From NCBI GenBank assembly GCA_947458455.1, contig CANGYJ010000001.1, positions 124,001-188,000 of the forward strand: 64,000 nucleotides of DNA, given 5' to 3'. A program made the translations under genes and the position numbers. The stretch comes from Verrucomicrobiaceae bacterium (GTDB lineage: Bacteria > Verrucomicrobiota > Verrucomicrobiia > Verrucomicrobiales > Verrucomicrobiaceae). Under the pieces are notes generated by a model. It was not told the DNA's origin and searched no databases. It was given only the letters and a program-made list of their open reading frames with translations. Shown here piece after piece: positions 5,629 through 62,000 of this stretch; position 1 is the first letter of the stretch; every line of letters begins with the position of its first letter.

Positions 5629-5723
5629 GCCAGGATTGATCGCCGCCATCCACGACGATGGCCTCCGCTGTGTTCGCATGGTTTTCCCATGCCGCTTTTC
5701 AGCCCATTCAATCCGGCCTCAAC

Positions 5724-6932
5724 ATGCTCCGTCCTCTCCTTTTCCTTTTCGTCTTCGTTTTCACCGCCCGCGCGGCCGAGCTTCGCCTCGAGCACATCAC
5801 CGCCCGTGTTCGCAGCCATCATCCCATGCTCAAAGCCGCCCGCATGGCCGTCGAGGAAGCTCGCGGACGCCAGCTCGGTAGCGGCAGGCTCGCCAATCCC
5901 ACGCTCGAGACCAGCTTTCAAAACGAAAGCCGCACCAGCCCGCGCACGATGCTCTTTGGCATCGATCAGTCCTTTCCCGTCACCAAGCGCCTCACTCTCG
6001 AAAAACAACTCTCCAGCCAGCTCGTCACCGCCGCGGAGCTGGAGGTGCGTGATGCGGAGCGTCGCCTCATCGCCCAGGCACGCGAGCACGCGGTGCAGAT
6101 CCTCGCCCTCCAGCAGCAGCGTATCCTGCGCCAGCAGCAGCGTGAACTGGCCCTCAAGCTCTCTGAATTCGCCAAAAGCCGCGCCGCCCAAGGAGAACTC
6201 TCGTCGCTCGATGCTGCGCAGGCCCAGGTGGATGCGCAGCGGCTCATTTTAGAGGCCAAAAAACTCGAAACTCAGCACACCAGTCTTCTCGGCGCCTTGA
6301 AGCCCATGCTCGGCATCGCTCCGCAGGATTCACTGGTACTTCTCGGGGCCTTGCCAGCCCTCGTCATGCCCGGCCTCTCGCCCTGGCAGCACCGGGCGGA
6401 TTTCCAACTCGCCCAAACCAAGATCACCGCCTCACAGACCGATGCCGCTCTCGCCAAATCCAAGCGCATGCAGGATGTGAGCGCAGGCTTCTTCGCCTCC
6501 CGCGAAAACCAAGGGCAACCCGATGGCCGTCGTGAGGACACCGGCTTCGTCGGCTTTCGTTTCTCCATCCCGCTGCCCTTCTGGAATCGCAACCAGGGCG
6601 AGATCGCCGAAAAAGCCGCCACCGCCGAGCGCCAGCGCCTCGAAGCCGAAGCTCTCGGAAAACAAATCGCCAGTGAGGCCGATACCGCTCGTCGTGAGAT
6701 GCAGGCCAATGCCGATCTCGCCCGCGAAACCCGCGACACGCTTCTCCCACTCGTCATCGAGCAAACGCAAAAGCTCGAACAAGCCTACCAGACCGGCCAG
6801 ACCGATCTCCTCATCCTCCTCCGCGCCCGCGATCAGCGCCTCCAACTCGAATCCGGCGTCCTCGATGCCGCCCGCGACTTCCACCTCGCCCGCATCCGCT
6901 ACGAAGCCGCCACCGGAGCCACCACGCCATGA
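5724..6932 (+). CDS. TolC-family outer-membrane efflux channel (CzcC-like)
   Basis: 402 residues with a signal peptide (LRPLLFLFVFVFTARA) and the long alpha-helical repeats of outer-membrane efflux proteins: RSHHPMLKAARMAVEEA near the N-terminus and a second half rich in Gln and Glu helices. It would form the outer-membrane duct of the RND pump encoded downstream. The start at 5724 is chosen because it places the signal peptide at the N-terminus; the frame is open back to 5658. Its stop overlaps the adaptor start (ATGA at 6929). Confidence 0.88.
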   Translation: MLRPLLFLFVFVFTARAAELRLEHITARVRSHHPMLKAARMAVEEARGRQLGSGRLANPTLETSFQNESRTSPRTMLFGIDQSFPVTKRLTLEKQLSSQLVTAAELEVRDAERRLIAQAREHAVQILALQQQRILRQQQRELALKLSEFAKSRAAQGELSSLDAAQAQVDAQRLILEAKKLETQHTSLLGALKPMLGIAPQDSLVLLGALPALVMPGLSPWQHRADFQLAQTKITASQTDAALAKSKRMQDVSAGFFASRENQGQPDGRREDTGFVGFRFSIPLPFWNRNQGEIAEKAATAERQRLEAEALGKQIASEADTARREMQANADLARETRDTLLPLVIEQTQKLEQAYQTGQTDLLILLRARDQRLQLESGVLDAARDFHLARIRYEAATGATTP

Positions 6933-8071
6933 AACTCGTCCCTTTCGTCCTTTGTGTCCTTTTCGTCCCTGTCCTCTTCGGCGCAAAACCCGACATCATC
7001 CTCGACGAGACCGCCGTCTCCCACATGAACCTCGAATTCGCCGAGGCGGAGGAAACCTCCTTCGAGGAGACCATCTTCTCGCTTGGGCACATCGAGGTGC
7101 TGCCAGGAAAAAAAGCCATCGTCAGCAGCCGCATTCCGGGTCGTGCCGTTTCCGTGCTCGTCATTCCGCATCAGGAGGTCGATGCTGGAGCGGAGGTCGC
7201 GTGGATCGAAAGCCGCCAGCCCGGTGATCCACCGCCCGTGATCAAGCTGGAGGCCCCCATCGCTGGTTTTGTCTCCAAAGTAAACCTCACCCAAGGGCAG
7301 CCTGTCTCGCCGGAAGATGCGCTCATCGAAATTTTTGATCTCAGCCTCGTCGAAGCCGCCGCTAGCGTGCCGCAGCATCTCGCGGGCAAATTAAAGCTTG
7401 GCCAGAAAGCCCACATCCGTCTTCACTCGCTGCCGGAGAAGGTCTTTGAAGCCAAACTCGCCCACATCGCCGTCGAAGCGGATGAGGCCACCGGCACCAT
7501 CGAGGCCGCGTTTCACGTCGCCAATCCAGAAAAGCTCCTGCGCCCCGGCATGAAGGCCGAGTTCAGCATCGTCGTCAGTCAGCGTGAAGGCGTCATGTCC
7601 ATTCCGCGCAGCGCCGTGCAGGGCGATCCCGCGCAGCGCTTCGTTTATGTGAAGGACTTCGAACTCAAAAACGCCTTCGTGAAAGCCCCGGTCACGCTCG
7701 GAGCGCAAAACGATCGCTTCGTCGAAGTCGTGAGCGGCCTGCTGCCTGGCGATGAAGTCGTTACTCGCGGCGCCTACGCACTCGTCTTTGCTGGCAAAGG
7801 CAGCGTCAGCCTCAAAGAAGCCATGGATGCCGCCCACGGCCACGCCCACAACGAAGACGGCACCGAGATGACGGAGGAACAACACGCCACTCACGAAGAT
7901 CACGACCACGAAGATGATCACAACGCGTGGAACACGCTCACCATCTTCTTCGCCAGCACCAGCGGGCTGCTGTTGGTGCTGCTGATCCTCCTTTCTCTAA
8001 AACGCCCCCATCATCCGTCCGATCCGTCTGATCCGACCGATCCCCAAACCTCTGCGAAGAAGCCATGCTAA
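6929..8071 (+). CDS. RND efflux periplasmic adaptor (CzcB/HlyD-like) with unusual C-terminal membrane helix
   Basis: 380 residues: signal peptide at 1-19, then the usual barrel-sandwich and beta-barrel adaptor domains (GHIEVLPGKKAIVSSRIPG; IEAPIAGFVSKVNLTQGQ-like lipoyl half near 108-125; MKAEFSIVVSQREGVMSIPRSAV near 208-230). After a His/Glu-rich stretch (about 307-333) a hydrophobic helix (ASTSGLLLVLLILL, about 337-353) and a polar SDPSDPTDP tail follow. A C-terminal transmembrane anchor is not typical of the family. The adaptor links pump to channel. It overlaps the pump gene by 7 bases. Confidence 0.9.
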   Translation: MKLVPFVLCVLFVPVLFGAKPDIILDETAVSHMNLEFAEAEETSFEETIFSLGHIEVLPGKKAIVSSRIPGRAVSVLVIPHQEVDAGAEVAWIESRQPGDPPPVIKLEAPIAGFVSKVNLTQGQPVSPEDALIEIFDLSLVEAAASVPQHLAGKLKLGQKAHIRLHSLPEKVFEAKLAHIAVEADEATGTIEAAFHVANPEKLLRPGMKAEFSIVVSQREGVMSIPRSAVQGDPAQRFVYVKDFELKNAFVKAPVTLGAQNDRFVEVVSGLLPGDEVVTRGAYALVFAGKGSVSLKEAMDAAHGHAHNEDGTEMTEEQHATHEDHDHEDDHNAWNTLTIFFASTSGLLLVLLILLSLKRPHHPSDPSDPTDPQTSAKKPC

Positions 8072-11000
8072 ACGCCCTCATCCGCTTCTCGCTGCATCAC
8101 CGGGCGCTCGTTTTGATGCTCGCCCTCGTCGTGCTGTTGTTTGGCGCACAAACGCTCACACAACTCCCCGTTGAGGTGCTGCCGGACATGACGAAGCCCA
8201 TCGTGACCATCCTCACCGAGGCACCCGGCCTCGCGCCGGAGGAGGTGGAAACGCTCGTCACGCAGCCGCTCGAAAATGCCGTGCAAGGCGTCGGCGGGCT
8301 CGACCGCTTGCGTTCAAACTCCGATGTCGGTCTGTCGCTCGTCTTCGCGGAGTTCGGCTGGGGCACGGACATCTACCGCGCACGCCAGCTCGTGCAGGAA
8401 CGCATGCAGAGCGTGAAACTGCCGGAACATGCCAAATCCGGCATGACGCCCGTTTCATCGCTCATGGGCGAGATCTTGCTCGTGGGTCTCAAAAGTGCCG
8501 ACGGCCAGATTTCGCCACCCGAACTGCGCACGCTCGCGGATTGGACGATTCGTCGGCGTTTGCAAAGCCTCAGCGGCGTGGCGGAGGTGCTCACCATCGG
8601 CGGCGGCGTGCGTCAAATTCAGGTGCAGCCTGATCCGAATCGTCTCGCGGCCTTCGGCGTGACCTTTGACGAGATCGAGGCCGCCGCTGCACGCGCCTCC
8701 GGCAATGCCACGAGCGGTTACCTGCAAGCCGGGCCGCGTGAAATCATGGTGCGAAATCTCGGCATGACCACGCGACTTGAGGATATCGCTCAAACCGTCA
8801 TCAAAACCGTCGGCGACCGCCCCGTGCTCATCAGCGATGTGGCGGAAGTGAAGAACGGCATCCAGCCCATGCGCGGCGATGCCAGCGTGAACGGCACGAT
8901 GGGCGTCGTGCTCAGCATCGACAAAGCGCCCGGCTTTGACACGCTGAAGCTCACACAGCAGGTGCAGGCGGCGTTGGAAGAACTGAAGCCCACGCTGCCT
9001 GCGGGCGTCACCGCCGAGATCCTCTTCCGCCAGGGGGATTTCATTGAACACGCCATCCACAACCTCGAAGAAGCCATCCGCGATGGCGCGATCATGGTCG
9101 CGATCATCCTCTTTTTGTTCCTGCTGAACTTCCGCACCACCTTCATCACGCTCATGGCCATGCCGCTGTCCTTCGCGGTGACGATTTTGATCTTCAAACT
9201 GCTCGGCGTCAGTGTGAACTCGATGACCCTCGGCGGCCTCGCTGTCGCCATCGGCATGGTGGTGGATGACGCCATTGTCGATGTGGAGAACGTGTGGCGG
9301 CGTTTGAGAGAAAAGGGTGGTGCAGCCGTCCCGGCTGCTCAGAGCAGGCCAGAGGCCTGCACCACACTGGACATCATCGCCACCGCCTCCGGCGAAGTGC
9401 GAAATTCCATCCTCTATGCCACGGTGCTCGTCATGCTCGTCTTCATGCCGCTGCTCGGTCTCGAAGGCATCGAAGGCCGTCTTTTCACGCCCATCGCCAT
9501 TGCCACGATCGCCAGCATGGCAGCGTCGTTTGTGGTGAGCCTCACGGTGATTCCCGTGCTGTGTTCTCTGTTGCTGAAAAGGGACGCAAAAGACGAAAGG
9601 GACGGTTTGGTCGTTCGCGCCATGAAATGGCTCGTGGAGCGCACCTTCCTCAAAGTCGCTCTCGGAGCGCCTCAGCTTGTTCTCGCGTTCGTGGGCATGC
9701 TGTTGGTCGCTTCGTTGATGTTGTATCCCAAGATGGGGAAGGAGTTTTTGCCCGCGTTCAATGAAGGCAGCGCCACCATCTCGCTCGCGGGTGCTCCCGG
9801 CACCTCCTTGGCCCATTCGAATGAGATCGGTGAGGCGGCGGTGAGATTGCTTCAAGGTATCAAAGAGGTGAAAAGTGTCGGTAGACGTGCCGGACGGGCG
9901 GAGCGGGATGATCACGTGATGCCGGTGAGCGTGAACGAGTTCGACGTGGAGTTTCACGAAGGCGGAAGACCGCGTGAGGTCGTGTTTGCCGAGATTCGCG
10001 GCAAGCTCGGCAAGATCCCCGGCACCTTCTTGAACATCGGCCAGCCTATCGGGCATCGCTTGAGCCACATGCTCAGCGGCGTCTCGGCGAAGATCGCCGT
10101 GAAGGTCTTCGGGCCCGACCTGGCCGTGCTGCGTGAAAAGGGTGAGCAAATACGCGACCTCGCCCAAACGATCCCCGGATTGACCGATGTGATGCTGGAG
10201 CCGCAGGTGCCGATTCCTCAGATTAAAATCGAAGTGAATCGCGAGCGAGCCGTCGCTTACGGCGTGCAGCCCGGATCGCTCAATGAACAAGTCTCCGCCC
10301 TGGTCGGCGGCAAAACGCTCGCCGAACTTCGCGAGGGCCAGCGCACGGTCGATCTCATGCTGCGACTGCCGGAGACATGGCGAGACTCACCTGAAAAGAT
10401 CGGTGATTTGATCATCGAGACCGACACCGGCCGTCGCATCCCGCTGCGGCTCGTGGCGGACATCCGCGAGAGCCAGGGGCCGAATGTCATCAACCGCGAA
10501 AACACCCAGCGCCGCATCGTCATCAGCGCCAACACGAGCGAGCGGGACCTCGAAAGCATTGTGCGCCGCTGGGAAACGGCCGTGAAGGAGCAGGTGAAGT
10601 TCCCCGAAGGTTACTTCCCGCGCTTTGAAGGCGAATTCCAAGCGCAGCAGGCCGCCGCGAAGCGCATCGCGTTTTACTTCGGCCTCGTGCTCGTGGCGGT
10701 GACCGTGCTGCTCTTCAGCTACTTCCGCAGTCTTTCGCTGGCCTTGCAGGTCATGCTGAACATCCCGCTCGCCCTCATGGGCGGTCTCGCGCTCACCTGG
10801 CTGCTCATTGATAACATCAGCATCGCCACCATTGTCGGCTTCATCGCCGTCGGCGGCGTGGCGGCTCGGAATGGCATCATGATGATCAGCCATTACCTGC
10901 ATCTGATGAAGCACGAGGGCGAGGGCTTCACTCGAGCGATGATCGTGCGCGGCACGTTGGAGCGGCTCGTGCCCGTGCTGATGACCGCCCTGAGCGCTGG

Positions 11001-23209: not shown

Positions 23210-23583
23210 GCGGTGGGCAGTGGGCAGAAGTCAGTGGGCAGAGGTTCTTTGTTCTTCGTTCGTAGTTCGGGGTTCGGGGTTCGCTTCGCGGCTTCGCAGT
23301 AGCCCGTTCTTGGTTCTTGGTTCATCCGCCTCCGCCTCCGACTCGAATTTCAGTGCTCAGTCGTCCGTTGTTCACGCTGGGCTTCAATGTTCATTGTTCA
23401 ACGTTGAATGTTCAATGTTCAACGTTGAATGTTCAATGTTGAACGTTCCCAGGTTCCTAGAGCCGAAAGCATCGAAAGAGACCATGAGCCTCGCCGCGCA
23501 GCTTCTCTCCAAGTCTCCAAGTCTCGCAGCGTAGCTGCTCTCCCAGTCTCCCAGTCTTTCCGCCTCCGCCTCCGCCTCCGCCC
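23210..23583. repeat. Intergenic repeat cluster, 374 bases
   Basis: No gene. It holds simple repeats based on GTTC/TTCG words (23240-23330), a 21-bp tandem unit from 23401 (ACGTTGAATGTTCAATGTTCA, then a nearly full second copy to 23440) that is largely self-complementary, and CTCCAAGTCTC / CCGCCTCCG runs (23505-23580). It lies between two convergent genes. Confidence 0.65.
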
Positions 23584-31818: not shown

Positions 31819-32005
31819 GAGCCTGGTGGGAATCGGCGGCCTTTGGCGAACGAAGGCAGAGGAATGGAGGCTTTGGGGACCATGCGGGAATTTCCCCTAT
31901 CCAAGCAGGGAGCGGAGTGGATGGCAAGACTTTGAGACGAGGGGACGGTGAGAAGAGGACCTGCCCGCAGGGCTACGCTCAGCGTTGCAGGCGGGCCTGC
32001 CCGCA

Positions 32006-32095
32006 GGGCTCGGTGCTTCCTGAACCGCGAGCGGAGTCGCGGACGACTTCAGCCGGAACGGGAACCCACAGGATGCAATCCTGTGACACTTTCTT
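32006..32095. repeat. Direct repeat copy 1 (90 bp)
   Basis: Starts GGGCTCGGTGCTTCCTGAAC and ends in GTGACACTTTCTT. It contains CGCGAGCGGAGTCGCGG and a 19-base palindrome at 32067-32085. Almost identical to copy 2 at 32181-32270. Confidence 0.8.
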
Positions 32096-32180
32096 GTGAC
32101 GACTGACGATCGAGCCGGGGGCGGATGAACCAAGAATGACGAACAACGTAGATCGCCTCTCCGAGGCGGATATTCCTTTT

Positions 32181-32270
32181 GGGCTCGGTGCTTCCTGAAC
32201 CGCGAGCGGAGTCGCGGAGTACTTCACCCGGAACGGGAACCCACAGGATGCAATCCTGTGACACTTTCTT
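32181..32270. repeat. Direct repeat copy 2 (90 bp)
   Basis: Second copy of the 90-base unit, differing from copy 1 mainly in the middle (GAGTACTTCACCC for GACGACTTCAGCC). The palindrome CACAGGATGCAATCCTGTG lies at 32242-32260. Confidence 0.8.
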
Positions 32271-32600
32271 CTGACCACAGCGGACAGGAGTGTCCGCGCT
32301 CCCTTCTTTGACCGCCTGAAGGCGGGACTACGAACCCCTGAACGGGCAGGTCAGTGGTGGATTCAACACCGCTGGATCGAGGACGAGTTCGAGTAGGAGG
32401 ACGAGGACGAAATTCTGACTACCGATCACTGCTTACCGACCACGGACTTCGAGACGGAGGCGGATTGCTCTGAGGCTCTGATCTCTACGCCCTTAGCCCT
32501 TGGCTCTACGCTACAGGATCGAGGCCGAATGAAGGCCGGGAGGAACATTCAACATCGAACGCTCAACATTGAACATTGAATGGGAGGCACGAAAGCTCTG

Positions 32601-36470: not shown

Positions 36471-36648
36471 GTAGTTCGGGCTTTAGCCCGTTTAGAAGCG
36501 TCCAATCACGGCCTAAAGGCCGAACTACTAACAGGAGATCATTCACACACGATCGCTGAGCGATGCCCTGCGGGCAGGGGGCTTTAGCCCGCTGAGAAGC
36601 GTCCAATCACGGCCTAAAGGCCGAACTACAAACAGGAGATCATTCACA
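36471..36648. repeat. REP-like doublet, two copies
   Basis: Copy 1 (36471-36528) reads GTAGTTCGGGCTTTAGCCCG, a spacer, then GGCCTAAAGGCCGAACTAC: outer arms GTAGTTCGG/CCGAACTAC and two inner hairpins. The core of 69 bases (36479-36547) recurs at 36580-36648 with few changes; copy 2 lacks the left outer arm. The gap lies between two converging genes. Confidence 0.8.
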
Positions 36649-36703
36649 AACCCACGGGCTGTGAGTCATAAGGGTTAGCCCGCCTCTTCGGCATTCGATA
36701 TGT

Positions 36704-42035: not shown

Positions 42036-42612
42036 CCGCTCCTGCGTCAGAAAGTGGAACAGGTTTTTAACCTGTTCTTCGTTCTTGGCTCGCTTCGCGG
42101 CTCTGCAGAAGCCTGGTCAGGAGTTCCATGTTGAATGTTCAGCGTTGAACGTTCGATGTTCCTTCCGCCCATTCTGACCAATCCATTCCACCACAGACCT
42201 GCCCGCAGTGCTACGCCGCAGCGTTGCAGGCGGGGGGCACGGAGGGACACAGAAGAAGACTTGGAGTTGTAAGGCGTCAGACGGGAGTGCGGACGCCCTC
42301 GTCCGCCGAGCTTCGTTTTTTCGATCAGGCCCAAATAGGTCCCCCGCAATACACGCCCGCATCGCTGCGCGAAGCTCTGCGGGCGGGGACGATGAGTGGG
42401 GGACTTGGAGACCATGAGACTTTGATAAGGCGGCGGGGGGGCTGATGGCTCGGTGGCACGCTTGTGGTGGCGAAATGGATGCAACCCGCCCTCACTTATA
42501 AAAAACGAAAGTTACAACCGGCGGGTAAGGGCAGGCGTCTCTCCCATGCACCTCCTTGGGGCGGTGTATTGCACAGCTAAACCAACCCTACCCAACCCCC
42601 ATTCATTAAACC
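42036..42612. other. Intergenic region with dispersed repeats, 577 bases
   Basis: No gene supported. It contains a TTGAATGTTCAGCGTTGAACGTTC stretch (42130-42155), a copy of the CTACGC..AGCGTTGCAGGCGGG word (42210-42234), and an ACCCGCC/GGCGGGT inverted pair (42484-42490 and 42520-42526) around an AT-rich core just ahead of the fasciclin gene, where the promoter is expected. Confidence 0.55.
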
Positions 42613-59088: not shown

Positions 59089-62000
59089 CAGGAAAGTACC
59101 TCTTCACCGCACAAGGCCGCCGCCGTCTTCTTCGTATTGTCACCATGCTCCGCGTTCCTTTTGTCCTTTTCGTCCTTTCCGCTTCTGCCTTCCCTCAAAC
59201 CGGCCCCGCCGGCAACGAAGCGGTCAAAAAGATCATGGAGACACGCCCAGGCCGCGGTGTGATGCGTGACGACACACCACCCACGCCCGCGGCGGAGGCG
59301 GTGAAGAAATTCAAACTGCGCAGCGATGTCGCCATCGACCTCATGGCGTCCGAACCGGTCGTCGAGCAGCCGCTTTATGTGAGCTGGGACAGCAAAGGCC
59401 GCATGTGGGTCACCATGTATCGCCAATACCAGTTTCCCGCCGGATTGAAGATCGTCAGCTACGACCAGCACCTCCGCGCGAAGTTCGACAAAGTGCCGTT
59501 GCCGCCACCTCGTGGCGAAAAAGGCGCGGACAAGATCACCGTCTTCGAAGACACCGATGGCGACGGCTTTTACGACAAGCACGAGGACGTCATCACCGGC
59601 CTGAACATCGCCAGCGCCGCGCTGCATGGCATGGGCCGCATCTGGGTGCTGAATCCGCCTTACCTCCTGAGCTATCCCGATGCCGACTTTGATGCCAAAC
59701 CGGATGGCGATCCCGAGGTCGAGCTCAGCGGCTTCGGCCTCGAAGACACCCACAGCGTCGCCACCAGCCTGCAATGGGGCATGGACGGCTGGCTTTACGG
59801 CGCGAACGGCAGCACCACCACCGGCAACGTCAGCAGCGCCAACACCAAGAACGTGAAATGGGAAGGCCAGTGCATCTGGCGCTACCATCCGAAGAAGAAG
59901 AGCTTCGAAATTTACGCCGAAGGTGGGGGCAACACCTTCAGCCTCGACTTCGACAGCAAAGGCCGCCTCTTCTCCGGCACGAACGGCGCCACACGCGGCA
60001 TGCATTACGAGCAGGGCAGCTACGGCATCAAAGGCTGGGGCAAACACGGCCCGCTCACCAATCCGTATGCCTTCGGCTGGTTCGAGCACATGCGGCATGA
60101 GGGCGATAACAAACGCTTCCCCCAAGCCTTCACCATTTATGAAGGCGGCCTGCTCGGCAGCGCCTACGAGGGAAAAATCATCGCCCCGAACGCCCTGCAC
60201 AACCTCGTCTATGTCAGCGAGCGCCTCCCCGACGGCTCCACCTTCCGCACCAAGGATGAAGAGCAACTCATCACCACCCCCGACCGCTGGTTCCGCCCCG
60301 TCTGGGCCGGCGTCGGCCCCGACGGCGGCTTCTACATGGCCGACTGGTATGATACGCGCCTCAGCCACGTCAGCCCCGTCGATGACTGGCACAAAACCAG
60401 CGGCCGCATCTACCGCGTGCGTCCCGCGAGTGGTGAGCCGAAGATGAAACCCTTCGATTTGAGCAAGGCGAGTGGTGAGGAGCTTCTCGGGTATTTGAGC
60501 CACGCGAATGAGTGGTTCCGCAAACAAGCCGTTCTCGAAATCGGCTGGCGAAACCTCCAAGACCTCGCCCCCAAGCTCGCTCAGTCACCAACGTCAATCG
60601 AGTCAATCTGGTCACTCGATGCGCTCGGTGCCGTCAAAGAGCTGCCCACCACCTCAAGCGATCCTTACATCCGTCGCTGGGCTTGGAGGATGGCTGGAGA
60701 GAAGCAAATCCTGCCACCTCTCGGCGAAGAAAAGAATCTGGAAGTCTGTGCTCAAATCCTTGCCTCAGCAAAGAAACTGCCGAATGCAGGCGCTCTCGCT
60801 CTTCTGCGAGCTGGCGGCATTGAAGACGAAAGCGGCCACCTTCCGCTCCTCGCGTGGTGGGCGCTCGAATCGAAAGCTGAAAAAGAGCGCGAAGCCGTCT
60901 TCACCTACCTCAAAGCCGACCCCGCCTTTCTTGCCACCAAACTCTTTCGCGACCATCTCGCCGAAAAGCTCGCCAAACGTTATGCGCTGGCCGGTGGCGA
61001 AGAAAACCTCAACTCCTGCGCCGATCTGCTCGCACTCACCAACGACGAAGCCCTGCGCGGCAAATTCATCGCGGGCATCGCCTCCGCCTTTGAAGGCGCG
61101 GAGATGCCCAAACTGCCGGATTCGCTCACCAAGGCCCTCAACGACTACATGGCGAAGCAAAGCGGCGGTGACCTAACACTCGCGTTGCGCAGTGGAAACG
61201 CCGAAGCGCTCGCGAAGGCCCTCAAACTGCTTTCCGACACCAAAGCAACGAATACAGCCCGAATCGCCATAGCGAAGACGTTGGCCGAACTCGGCAAGCA
61301 AGAGGCCGTGATGCCCATGGTGCTGATTTTGAAGTCCAGCGCGGCTCCGAGCCTCAAACGCGGCATGTTGCAGGCCGCAGCCAAATTTGACGACAAACGC
61401 CTGCCTGAGGCCCTCCTGCTCGGTTGGGAAGGCCAAATCGCGGGCGACAAAGCCCTGCGCGAGGACGCCCTGCGCGTCATGGCCGGACGCAAAGAATGGG
61501 CCCAGGTGCTCGTGAACTTCGTCAACGAATGGAAAGTGCCTGCCAAGCATTTCACCATCGACATCGTCCGCCAGCTCAGCCTGCACAAGGACGCGGAGAT
61601 CGACGCGAGCATCGAAAAGCACTGGAAAGGCCTACTTGCCACCGGACCCACGCCGGAGAAGAAACGCGAAGCCGAGCGCATCAAAGCCGTGCTCAAAACC
61701 GGCCTCGGCGATGCCGAGAAGGGCAAACGGCAATTCACCGCCCGCTGCGCTGTCTGCCACAGCCTCTTCGGCGAAGGCGGCAAGATCGGTCCCGAGCTCA
61801 CCGGCTACGACCGCAGCAACGCCGACTTCTGGCTCGACAACCTCTTCACCCCCAGCCTCGAAATCCGCGAAGGCTTCGGCACCTACATCGTGAAAACCAA
61901 AGGCGGTCAGATGCTCACCGGCCTCATGGATGCCCAAGACGCCCAAGGCATCGTCCTCAAAGACCTCGCCGGCAACAAAACCGCCATCAAGCAGACCGAC

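Follow-up and report, generated by a model that had tools for sequence, protein, structure and literature searches.

Repetitive extragenic palindromic (REP) sequences of the GTAG superfamily also occur inside genes, and Opitutus terrae has the highest number of such intragenic copies (Di Nocera et al. 2013, PMC3733652). In the parts of that report that deal with intragenic inserts, more than half of them are dimers or groups coding for 20-30 residues, the GTAG-20 family of O. terrae is mostly GTGG-tagged, intragenic REPs are listed for the repair genes uvrA and DNA ligase of O. terrae and in three further species, for tRNA synthetase genes, and different REPs occupy about the same site in the recB genes of two Xanthomonas (PMC3733652). 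REPINs and RAYTs are the subject of a further report (Bertels and Rainey 2011, PMC3116915). In Rickettsia, the palindromic mobile DNA elements termed RPEs, which are about 105-150 bp long, lie in frame in conserved genes and are tolerated by the protein, and the summaries of the two reports state that the gmk product with an RPE is enzymatically active (PMC10969869, PMC2229807). Since intragenic GTAG REPs (PMC3733652) and Rickettsia RPEs are reported in genes, the kind of element described here is already known.

The present element is a doublet in a heavy-metal efflux pump gene within the window, i.e. the whole 64,000-nucleotide stretch of Verrucomicrobiaceae DNA that was analysed. It resembles the GTAG superfamily of O. 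terrae in being a verrucomicrobial REP with GTGG tags that forms dimers and has copies inside ORFs; unlike in that account, 18 of the 30 detected copies are in frame, four families are found in one pump loop, and pairing was compared between species. It resembles REPINs in that two inverted REPs form one unit and a RAYT-like gene is flanked by copies, whereas REPINs are best known from extragenic space and 18 of the 30 copies lie within genes. With RPEs, as summarised above, it shares the in-frame insertion in conserved protein genes; unlike the rickettsial RPEs it spans 49-57 bp, outside their length range, and has REP tags and a RAYT-like neighbour. The original studies on RPEs are reportedly those of Ogata et al. 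from 2000 and 2002. The host gene is an ordinary member of the CusA/CzcA RND heavy-metal pumps, but it carries a REP-encoded loop between helices 4 and 5. The literature searched, which was not aimed exactly at these points and included few subscription papers, yielded neither an RND pump loop hit repeatedly by several families nor a between-species pairing analysis of in-frame REP copies, and no paper in it joined repetitive extragenic palindromic, gene conversion and concerted evolution. The word RND is absent from the main text of PMC3733652.

The reading that we favour, with a probability of ca. 0.88, is a REPIN-like insertion of a RAYT family that occurred in frame, was tolerated in a pump loop and goes back to an ancestor shared with a related genome, G037. 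Two inverted REP units of a genome-wide family, probably moved by a RAYT, would have entered the CzcA-type pump gene in that common ancestor, at the short segment linking transmembrane helices 4 and 5, which is free to vary in length and sequence; the element would have replaced about six resident residues seen in the sister species, and would now code for 17 residues of a flexible loop. The established parts of this reading are the family membership, the frame, the position in the loop (from homology and a model), the insert-free relatives, the repeated invasion and the RAYT-like gene by copies of the family. An earlier note on this DNA had proposed that the doublet may be a REP-type insertion which the loop, being variable in length, could tolerate, and the copies, the RAYT-like gene, the insert-free relatives and the flexible loop support that proposal.

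The doublet occupies bases 9317-9365 of the window and reads GTGGT GCAGCCG TCC CGGCTGC TCAGA GCAGGCC AGA GGCCTGC ACCAC (49 bases). Its outer arms are perfect, each of its two hairpins has a 7-bp stem and a 3-nt loop, and its parts follow the order of a REP doublet, namely GTGG tag, hairpin, linker, hairpin and CCAC tag (Table 1). When the 63-nt stretch around the doublet was folded as RNA, the energy was -31.9 kcal/mol (z -3.26), and none of 200 shuffles folded as well. Sequence and fold thus confirm the previous description of a 49-base doublet with perfect outer arms and two inner hairpins, and the window element is a REP doublet, REPIN-like in form. In the 64-kb window, each half of the doublet matches itself alone at up to three mismatches (chance means 0.00 and 0.01). 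The boundaries are wider in aligned family members and in the match of a covariance model (R1), by a few bases on either side (9313-9369); the window copy is itself one of the 17 sequences used to build R1. The window holds other repeats as well. Repeats of a 14-nt unit like GTTCAACGTTGAAT occur in both orientations at 23382-23448, 32542-32585 and 42123-42161; two 73-nt copies that are 95% alike lie at 36478-36550 and 36579-36651, with the motifs GGGCTTTAGCCC and GGCCTAAAGGCC; and a 115-nt direct repeat, 89% alike, is found at 31989-32103 and 32164-32278.

Table 1. Features of the doublet and its host locus (positions in the window) and in-frame sites of the repeat family shared between genomes (G000 is the genome of the window).
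Feature	Position	Strand	Genomes	Basis
CusA/CzcA-type RND efflux pump gene with insert, 1035 aa	8065..11172	+		ORF; TIGR00914; PDB relative CusA 3t51
Codons of REP-encoded peptide GGAAVPAAQSRPEACTT, residues 418-434	9316..9366	+		codon table; pLDDT; helix 4/5 loop
Extended REP-doublet element, 57 nt	9313..9369	.		covariance model R1 match G000:C1:133313-133369, 77.2 bits, E 1.1e-16
Left REP unit, GTGG tag and hairpin GCAGCCG-TCC-CGGCTGC	9317..9338	+		sequence, fold, helix 2 covariation, 99.2% of cells paired
Linker TCAGA between the REP units	9339..9343	.		sequence; length and sequence vary among copies
Right REP unit (inverted), hairpin GCAGGCC-AGA-GGCCTGC and CCAC tag	9344..9365	-		sequence, fold, helix 3 covariation, 97.4% of cells paired
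Upstream ORF, probably CzcB-like membrane-fusion subunit	6929..8071	+		ORF; name by position
Upstream ORF, probably CzcC-like outer-membrane subunit	5658..6932	+		ORF; name by position
Shared in-frame site, LeuRS			G000, G009, G005	
Shared in-frame site, C6:147265			G000, G022, G011	
Shared in-frame site, second RND pump (RND2)			G000, G017, G001	
Shared in-frame site, BNR protein			G000, G005	
Shared in-frame site, looks like IleRS			G001, G005, probably G012	
Shared in-frame site, one further gene			G011, G012, G013	
Shared in-frame site, DUF7133 gene			G000, G007	
Shared in-frame site, kinase			G000, G016	
Shared in-frame site, CzcA-type pump			G000, G037	

The genome to which the window belongs comprises 5.35 Mb. 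At E <=10, BLAST with the 81-nt region yielded 39 match rows in this genome, with the self match and some both-strand matches counted, and a strict doublet pattern gave 11 matches per strand, corresponding to 11 places, while the reversed control pattern gave 0. In 17 aligned copies, 94.3% of the cells of a three-helix structure were paired (99.2% and 97.4% in the inner stems, 87.3% in the outer helix), and the covariation score was 0.292 against 0.079 for shuffled alignments, with 0 of 500 shuffles reaching it. The GTGG tag was invariant in all 17 copies, and GTAG occurs in related genomes. In the own genome, R1 matched at 30 distinct places (59 strand-wise matches, E <=0.1), some of them half elements; this number is a lower bound since 150 of the 4059 first-look candidates were scored. 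At E <=0.01, R1 matched in 19 of the 35 genomes searched, the own genome included. The family thus has the marks of REPs and REPINs: a GTAG-like tag by a stem-loop, two inverted REPs as one unit, many dispersed copies, and a Y1_Tnp reading frame with copies to either side. A genome search for other copies of the doublet had been named in the earlier note as a check, and the 30 places rule out their absence. The GC-richness of the stretch, and nothing further, speaks for a chance palindrome-like stretch of ordinary coding sequence; this explanation is refuted by the number of related places, the covariation among the 17 copies, the zero matches of the reversed control and the close relatives that have no element, and we give it next to no credence.

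Y1_Tnp matches number 12 in the own genome, and a single gene appears to contain two of these. The RAYT-like reading frame comprises the last 208 residues (C4:208889-209515) of the ORF C4:208889-209734 and scores 32.2 bits on Pfam Y1_Tnp (cut-off 23), while its match to NCBIfam REP_Tyr_transpos (E 2.8e-18, 66 bits) is below the cut-off of 80. It has an HxH motif (PNHVH), and F stands at one candidate place for the catalytic tyrosine. One family copy lies beyond its 3' end (C4:208806-208863) and two lie before its 5' end (C4:209533-209598 and 209594-209651), with the longer ORF running through the latter. These features make a RAYT (a single-strand transposase of the Y1/HuH type) the probable mover of the genome-wide family. 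In the related genome G009, six places (L346-L351) belong to a seemingly separate palindrome family, GCATGGGG..CAGGCGTCCCGCCTG..CCCCATGC, none of which was called in frame.

The pump scores 785 bits on TIGR00914 (curated cut-off 701) and is thus a member of the CusA/CzcA family, with CusA 3t51 as its closest PDB relative (E 2.9e-144). The named relatives nearest to it are MAGs labelled Verrucomicrobia, Prosthecobacter or Verrucomicrobiaceae. The two upstream ORFs are presumably CzcB-like and CzcC-like, as we take it from their position. The REP-encoded peptide follows the conserved VVDDAIVDVENVW segment and precedes the next helix; in the predicted structure, helices span residues 386-419 and 434-464, pLDDT is below 50 at residues 420-431, and the REP-encoded loop is the lowest ten-residue pLDDT block (41) of the model, the C-terminal end excepted. 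The pump loop with the insert is predicted to be unstructured or flexible. Its assignment to TM 4/5 and to the cytoplasmic side is presumed from RND topology. Several claims of the earlier note were borne out: the doublet lies in frame in a CzcA-like gene and codes for ca. 17 loop residues after helix 4 (residues 418-434), VVDDAIVDVENVW adjoins it as the conserved segment, and the rest of the gene is ordinary, with Pfam ACR_tran spanning residues 17-1037 of the 1046-aa open frame. In a later pump loop, which should follow TM6 by our assumption, a 27-nt stretch (9578-9604) is 89% complementary to 6937-6963 (repeat region 6937-6968), and a further related copy lies at 59153-59175; this is a further case of a short repeat within coding DNA.

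The helix 4/5 loop was readable in 108 of 110 homologue loci, some genomes being represented twice. It had 16 residues in 76 loci, 12 in 15, 13-15 in five and 20 or more in 12, and the insert-free pumps closest to the window pump had 12-aa loops. Of the 108 loops, none but those of the window genome and of L075 (G037), which have the insertion in common, contained the residues of the window loop, and an ancestral conserved loop was rejected on this ground. Homologue alignment and structure prediction of the loop, both proposed as checks beforehand, thus gave insert residues that are not widespread, a variable loop length and a flexible segment. Six of the ten distinct long loops were REP-like by judgement: family A in the window pump and L075, family B in L042 (peptide GTGFQPV) and L078 (GIGFQPV), family C in L035 (GTGILPV) and family D in L118 (58 residues). 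No palindrome family could be matched to the other four of these ten loops (L044, L055, L100 and L135). Both the B insert (G016) and the C insert (G015) proved to be multi-copy when their own genomes were searched, with 28 match rows in each case (self and some both-strand matches counted), and the inserts of L078 and L118 were assigned to B and D by sequence only. The DNA of the L118 loop (CANJSG010000015.1), read as RNA, folds at -112.9 kcal/mol.

In a tree built without the loop, insert presence corresponds to four changes (A, B twice, C) among 33 of 35 rows, two unclear rows being set aside. The two carriers of family A pair at bootstrap 100, and L042, L078 and L035 are each sister to an insert-free pump (bootstrap 97-100); the carrier of family D, L118, is in a distant branch and adds a fifth gain. 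On a gains-only count, the pump loop has thus been invaded five times by four palindrome families, three of them shown to be multi-copy and the fourth judged from its sequence. That the loop is a unique hot spot is only partly true; across 98 distinct proteins, length also varies at residues 276, 506-509 and 632. One CzcA homologue has a 51-aa insert at residue 506, at the place matching the copy site of the second RND pump (RND2).

Compared with the sisters of A and B, ca. 18 resident loop nucleotides are missing, and the net gains over insert-free pumps are 36 nt (A), 33 nt (B) and 42 nt (C); ValRS is alike, with a net gain of 36 nt. This pattern suggests that the inserts of the pump and ValRS are replacements rather than plain insertions. 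Since an IS200-like enzyme is expected to insert cleanly, the look of replacement counts against the insertion reading. No target duplication was seen in the sister comparisons of the insert sites. Later trimming of the loop is one possibility that may explain the missing resident nucleotides. The MutS loop was too variable among relatives for the insertion mode to be judged.

Between G000 and G037, the loop differs by 4-5 synonymous and three nonsynonymous changes (dS 0.434 and dN 0.075, against 0.72 and 0.061 in the rest of the gene). Since these substitutions are near the gene's own pattern, the loop evolves as coding sequence. The peptide might have been recruited to serve a function in the pump, through a loop contact or in regulation: the frame and 14 of 17 residues are kept between G000 and G037 (loop dN/dS about 0.17), and in other lineages, different palindromes gave rise to loops of 23-26 aa. 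However, the loop is predicted to be disordered, its nonsynonymous rate is not low (32% of the 19-codon windows are as high or higher, and the rest of the gene has a dN/dS of about 0.085), and the loops of the other lineages are unrelated in sequence; we consider recruitment very unlikely. On the favoured reading of a tolerated insertion, the insert most likely has no role beyond that of a flexible loop, the peptide would be translated and harmless, and its retention would reflect a filter for open, tolerable peptides in tolerant loops and not a new function.

The 18 in-frame places of the own genome lie in 16 ORFs, by the rule that the best coding score on both sides is in the same frame (codon model trained on 27 window ORFs), and two of them are half elements (C15:56468 and C9:8820). 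The mainly extragenic location that is typical of REPs, although it does not define them, is thus not seen here. The hosts include MutS, ValRS, LeuRS, two RND pumps, a protein kinase, an FAD oxidoreductase and six DUF7133 proteins, and 10 of the 18 copies are inside a Pfam match that spans the copy. When aligned with structures, the element position corresponds to a 16-aa gap in 1gax (ValRS) and to 12 absent residues, in two gaps, in 1h3n (LeuRS); we take both chains to be Thermus enzymes. The RND2 copy lies after what should be TM6, a numbering that we assume. By the same in-frame rule, 448 of 1000 random window positions were intragenic, and random in-silico placement passed the rule in 381 of 1000 trials for the 57-nt element and in 21 of 1000 for the 49-nt element. 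Measured by these yardsticks, genes are not avoided, and the frame is strongly filtered. The 17 in-frame copies with a left half use the GAAV frame in 11 cases, VVQ in six and WCSRPG in none, a distribution with a probability of 0.001 under equal use of the frames; part of this bias may come from stop codons in some linkers.

Of 300 random positions in the window, 117 were intragenic by a stricter coding rule. Under this rule, which left out loci of other lengths and repeats of one place and missed a known copy of C in a pump (L258), the intragenic share was 6 of 17 usable loci for family A in relatives (23 fetched), 4 of 19 for B in G016 (27 fetched) and 3 of 8 for C in G015 (28 fetched), and a looser rule gave 15 of 40 places in relatives, chosen from the listed R1 matches. 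Because of these lower shares, an in-gene majority can be taken as shown only for family A in the window genome. When other copies of the own genome were folded and compared with shuffles, z was -4.29 for MutS, -3.33 for RND2, -2.74 for LeuRS and -1.35 for ValRS. Two further observations concern these hosts. In several genomes of the same genus (L330, L339 and others), the ValRS match breaks into parts near query residues 482-508, in some of them inside a single open frame, and perhaps this is another in-frame insert; in G003, the MutS match (L288) contains one in-frame TGA.

Nine in-frame sites are common to several species (Table 1); the name IleRS for one of them is our presumption. Pairing was counted with one comparison per site, between the first and the last genome. 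Of 171 pairs, 147 were the same in the two genomes (in at least one of these, neither copy pairs), 10 changed in a compensatory way, two changed on one side and stayed paired, and 12 were unpaired in one copy or both, five of these in the pump copy of G037 and seven across the other eight sites. In RND2, G000 and G017 have GTGG/GCAGCC and G001 has GTAG/GCAACC. Synonymous divergence at the LeuRS site was 0.06-0.12 in the element and 0.35-0.47 in the flanks (p 0.003-0.008, three related comparisons), at C6:147265 it was 0 and 0.41 (p 0.00016), and in the kinase pair, the orthology of which is doubtful, it was also below that of the flanks (p 0.0013). The differences at the CzcA site (p 0.12) and at C1:79475 (p 0.19) were not significant. 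These observations suggest that something, either refreshment by the resident family or selection, may keep the coding palindromes paired.

Under refreshment, the resident family would repeatedly renew its in-frame copies, by gene conversion or by a new insertion into the old site, and loops of otherwise unrelated proteins would change in concert with selfish DNA. The 10 compensatory changes, the RND2 tag and stem that differ in both arms between G001 and G000/G017, and the lower synonymous divergence within the element at LeuRS and C6:147265 are in line with it. The pump copy fits as well: it is perfect in G000, where the family is populous, and in G037 the peptide is kept but the hairpins have decayed (z -1.56, two mismatches in each inner stem), with R1 finding no family place besides the pump among the 150 of 3009 candidates scored. 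On the other hand, G022 (genome 52% complete) has one detected family place, yet its copy at C6:147265 is intact and identical to that of G000. Since every shared site other than CzcA was located by means of the structure model, decayed copies are under-represented and intact ones favoured, and CzcA, found by protein similarity, has no significant extra synonymous conservation; nor has the C1:79475 pair, and the kinase and DUF7133 sites may be separate insertions. Because of the intact copy in G022, the non-significant results and this bias, refreshment is a hypothesis and not a result, and we regard it as a tentative idea with the odds against it. A simple link between family size and intact palindromes is weakened by G022, and the branch asymmetry of the stem changes in the pump, all of which fall on the G037 branch, was not significant as a proof of refreshment, this longer branch having 84 of 140 polarised changes, with 366 ambiguous.

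The same compensatory changes and synonymous conservation would also be expected if the host selected the hairpins for an RNA or DNA function in the message, such as pausing, mRNA stability or DNA structure, and four of the five own-genome copies folded (window, MutS, RND2 and LeuRS) clearly beat their shuffles. Against such selection, the fold of the ValRS copy does not stand out, the elements sit in host genes that are unrelated to one another, and the element is missing from most related pumps. The earlier note had suggested that RNA hairpins in the message could slow translation. The decay of the hairpins in G037, where the loop is kept, makes a conserved need for hairpins in the pump gene less likely, and an RNA need for them there is not supported. 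We judge this explanation unlikely.

REPs owe their name to an extragenic location, yet in one genome most of the family copies detected are in frame. The in-frame copies occupy enzymes that every cell needs, palindromes of four families reach one pump loop in different lineages, and the palindrome is kept at several sites shared between species, partly through matched changes. This raises a testable question, namely whether mobile palindromes merely find tolerant loops or keep shaping protein sequence over the life of a repeat family. When these proteins are annotated, stretches like SGAAVPAA or TGFQPV should be read as translated repeats. It is possible, although we would not expect it, that a selfish DNA family rewrites loops of LeuRS, IleRS, RND pumps and other proteins, with copies that are refreshed, change in both arms and decay once the family dies. 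If this is true, parts of unrelated proteins would show concerted evolution with a transposable element.
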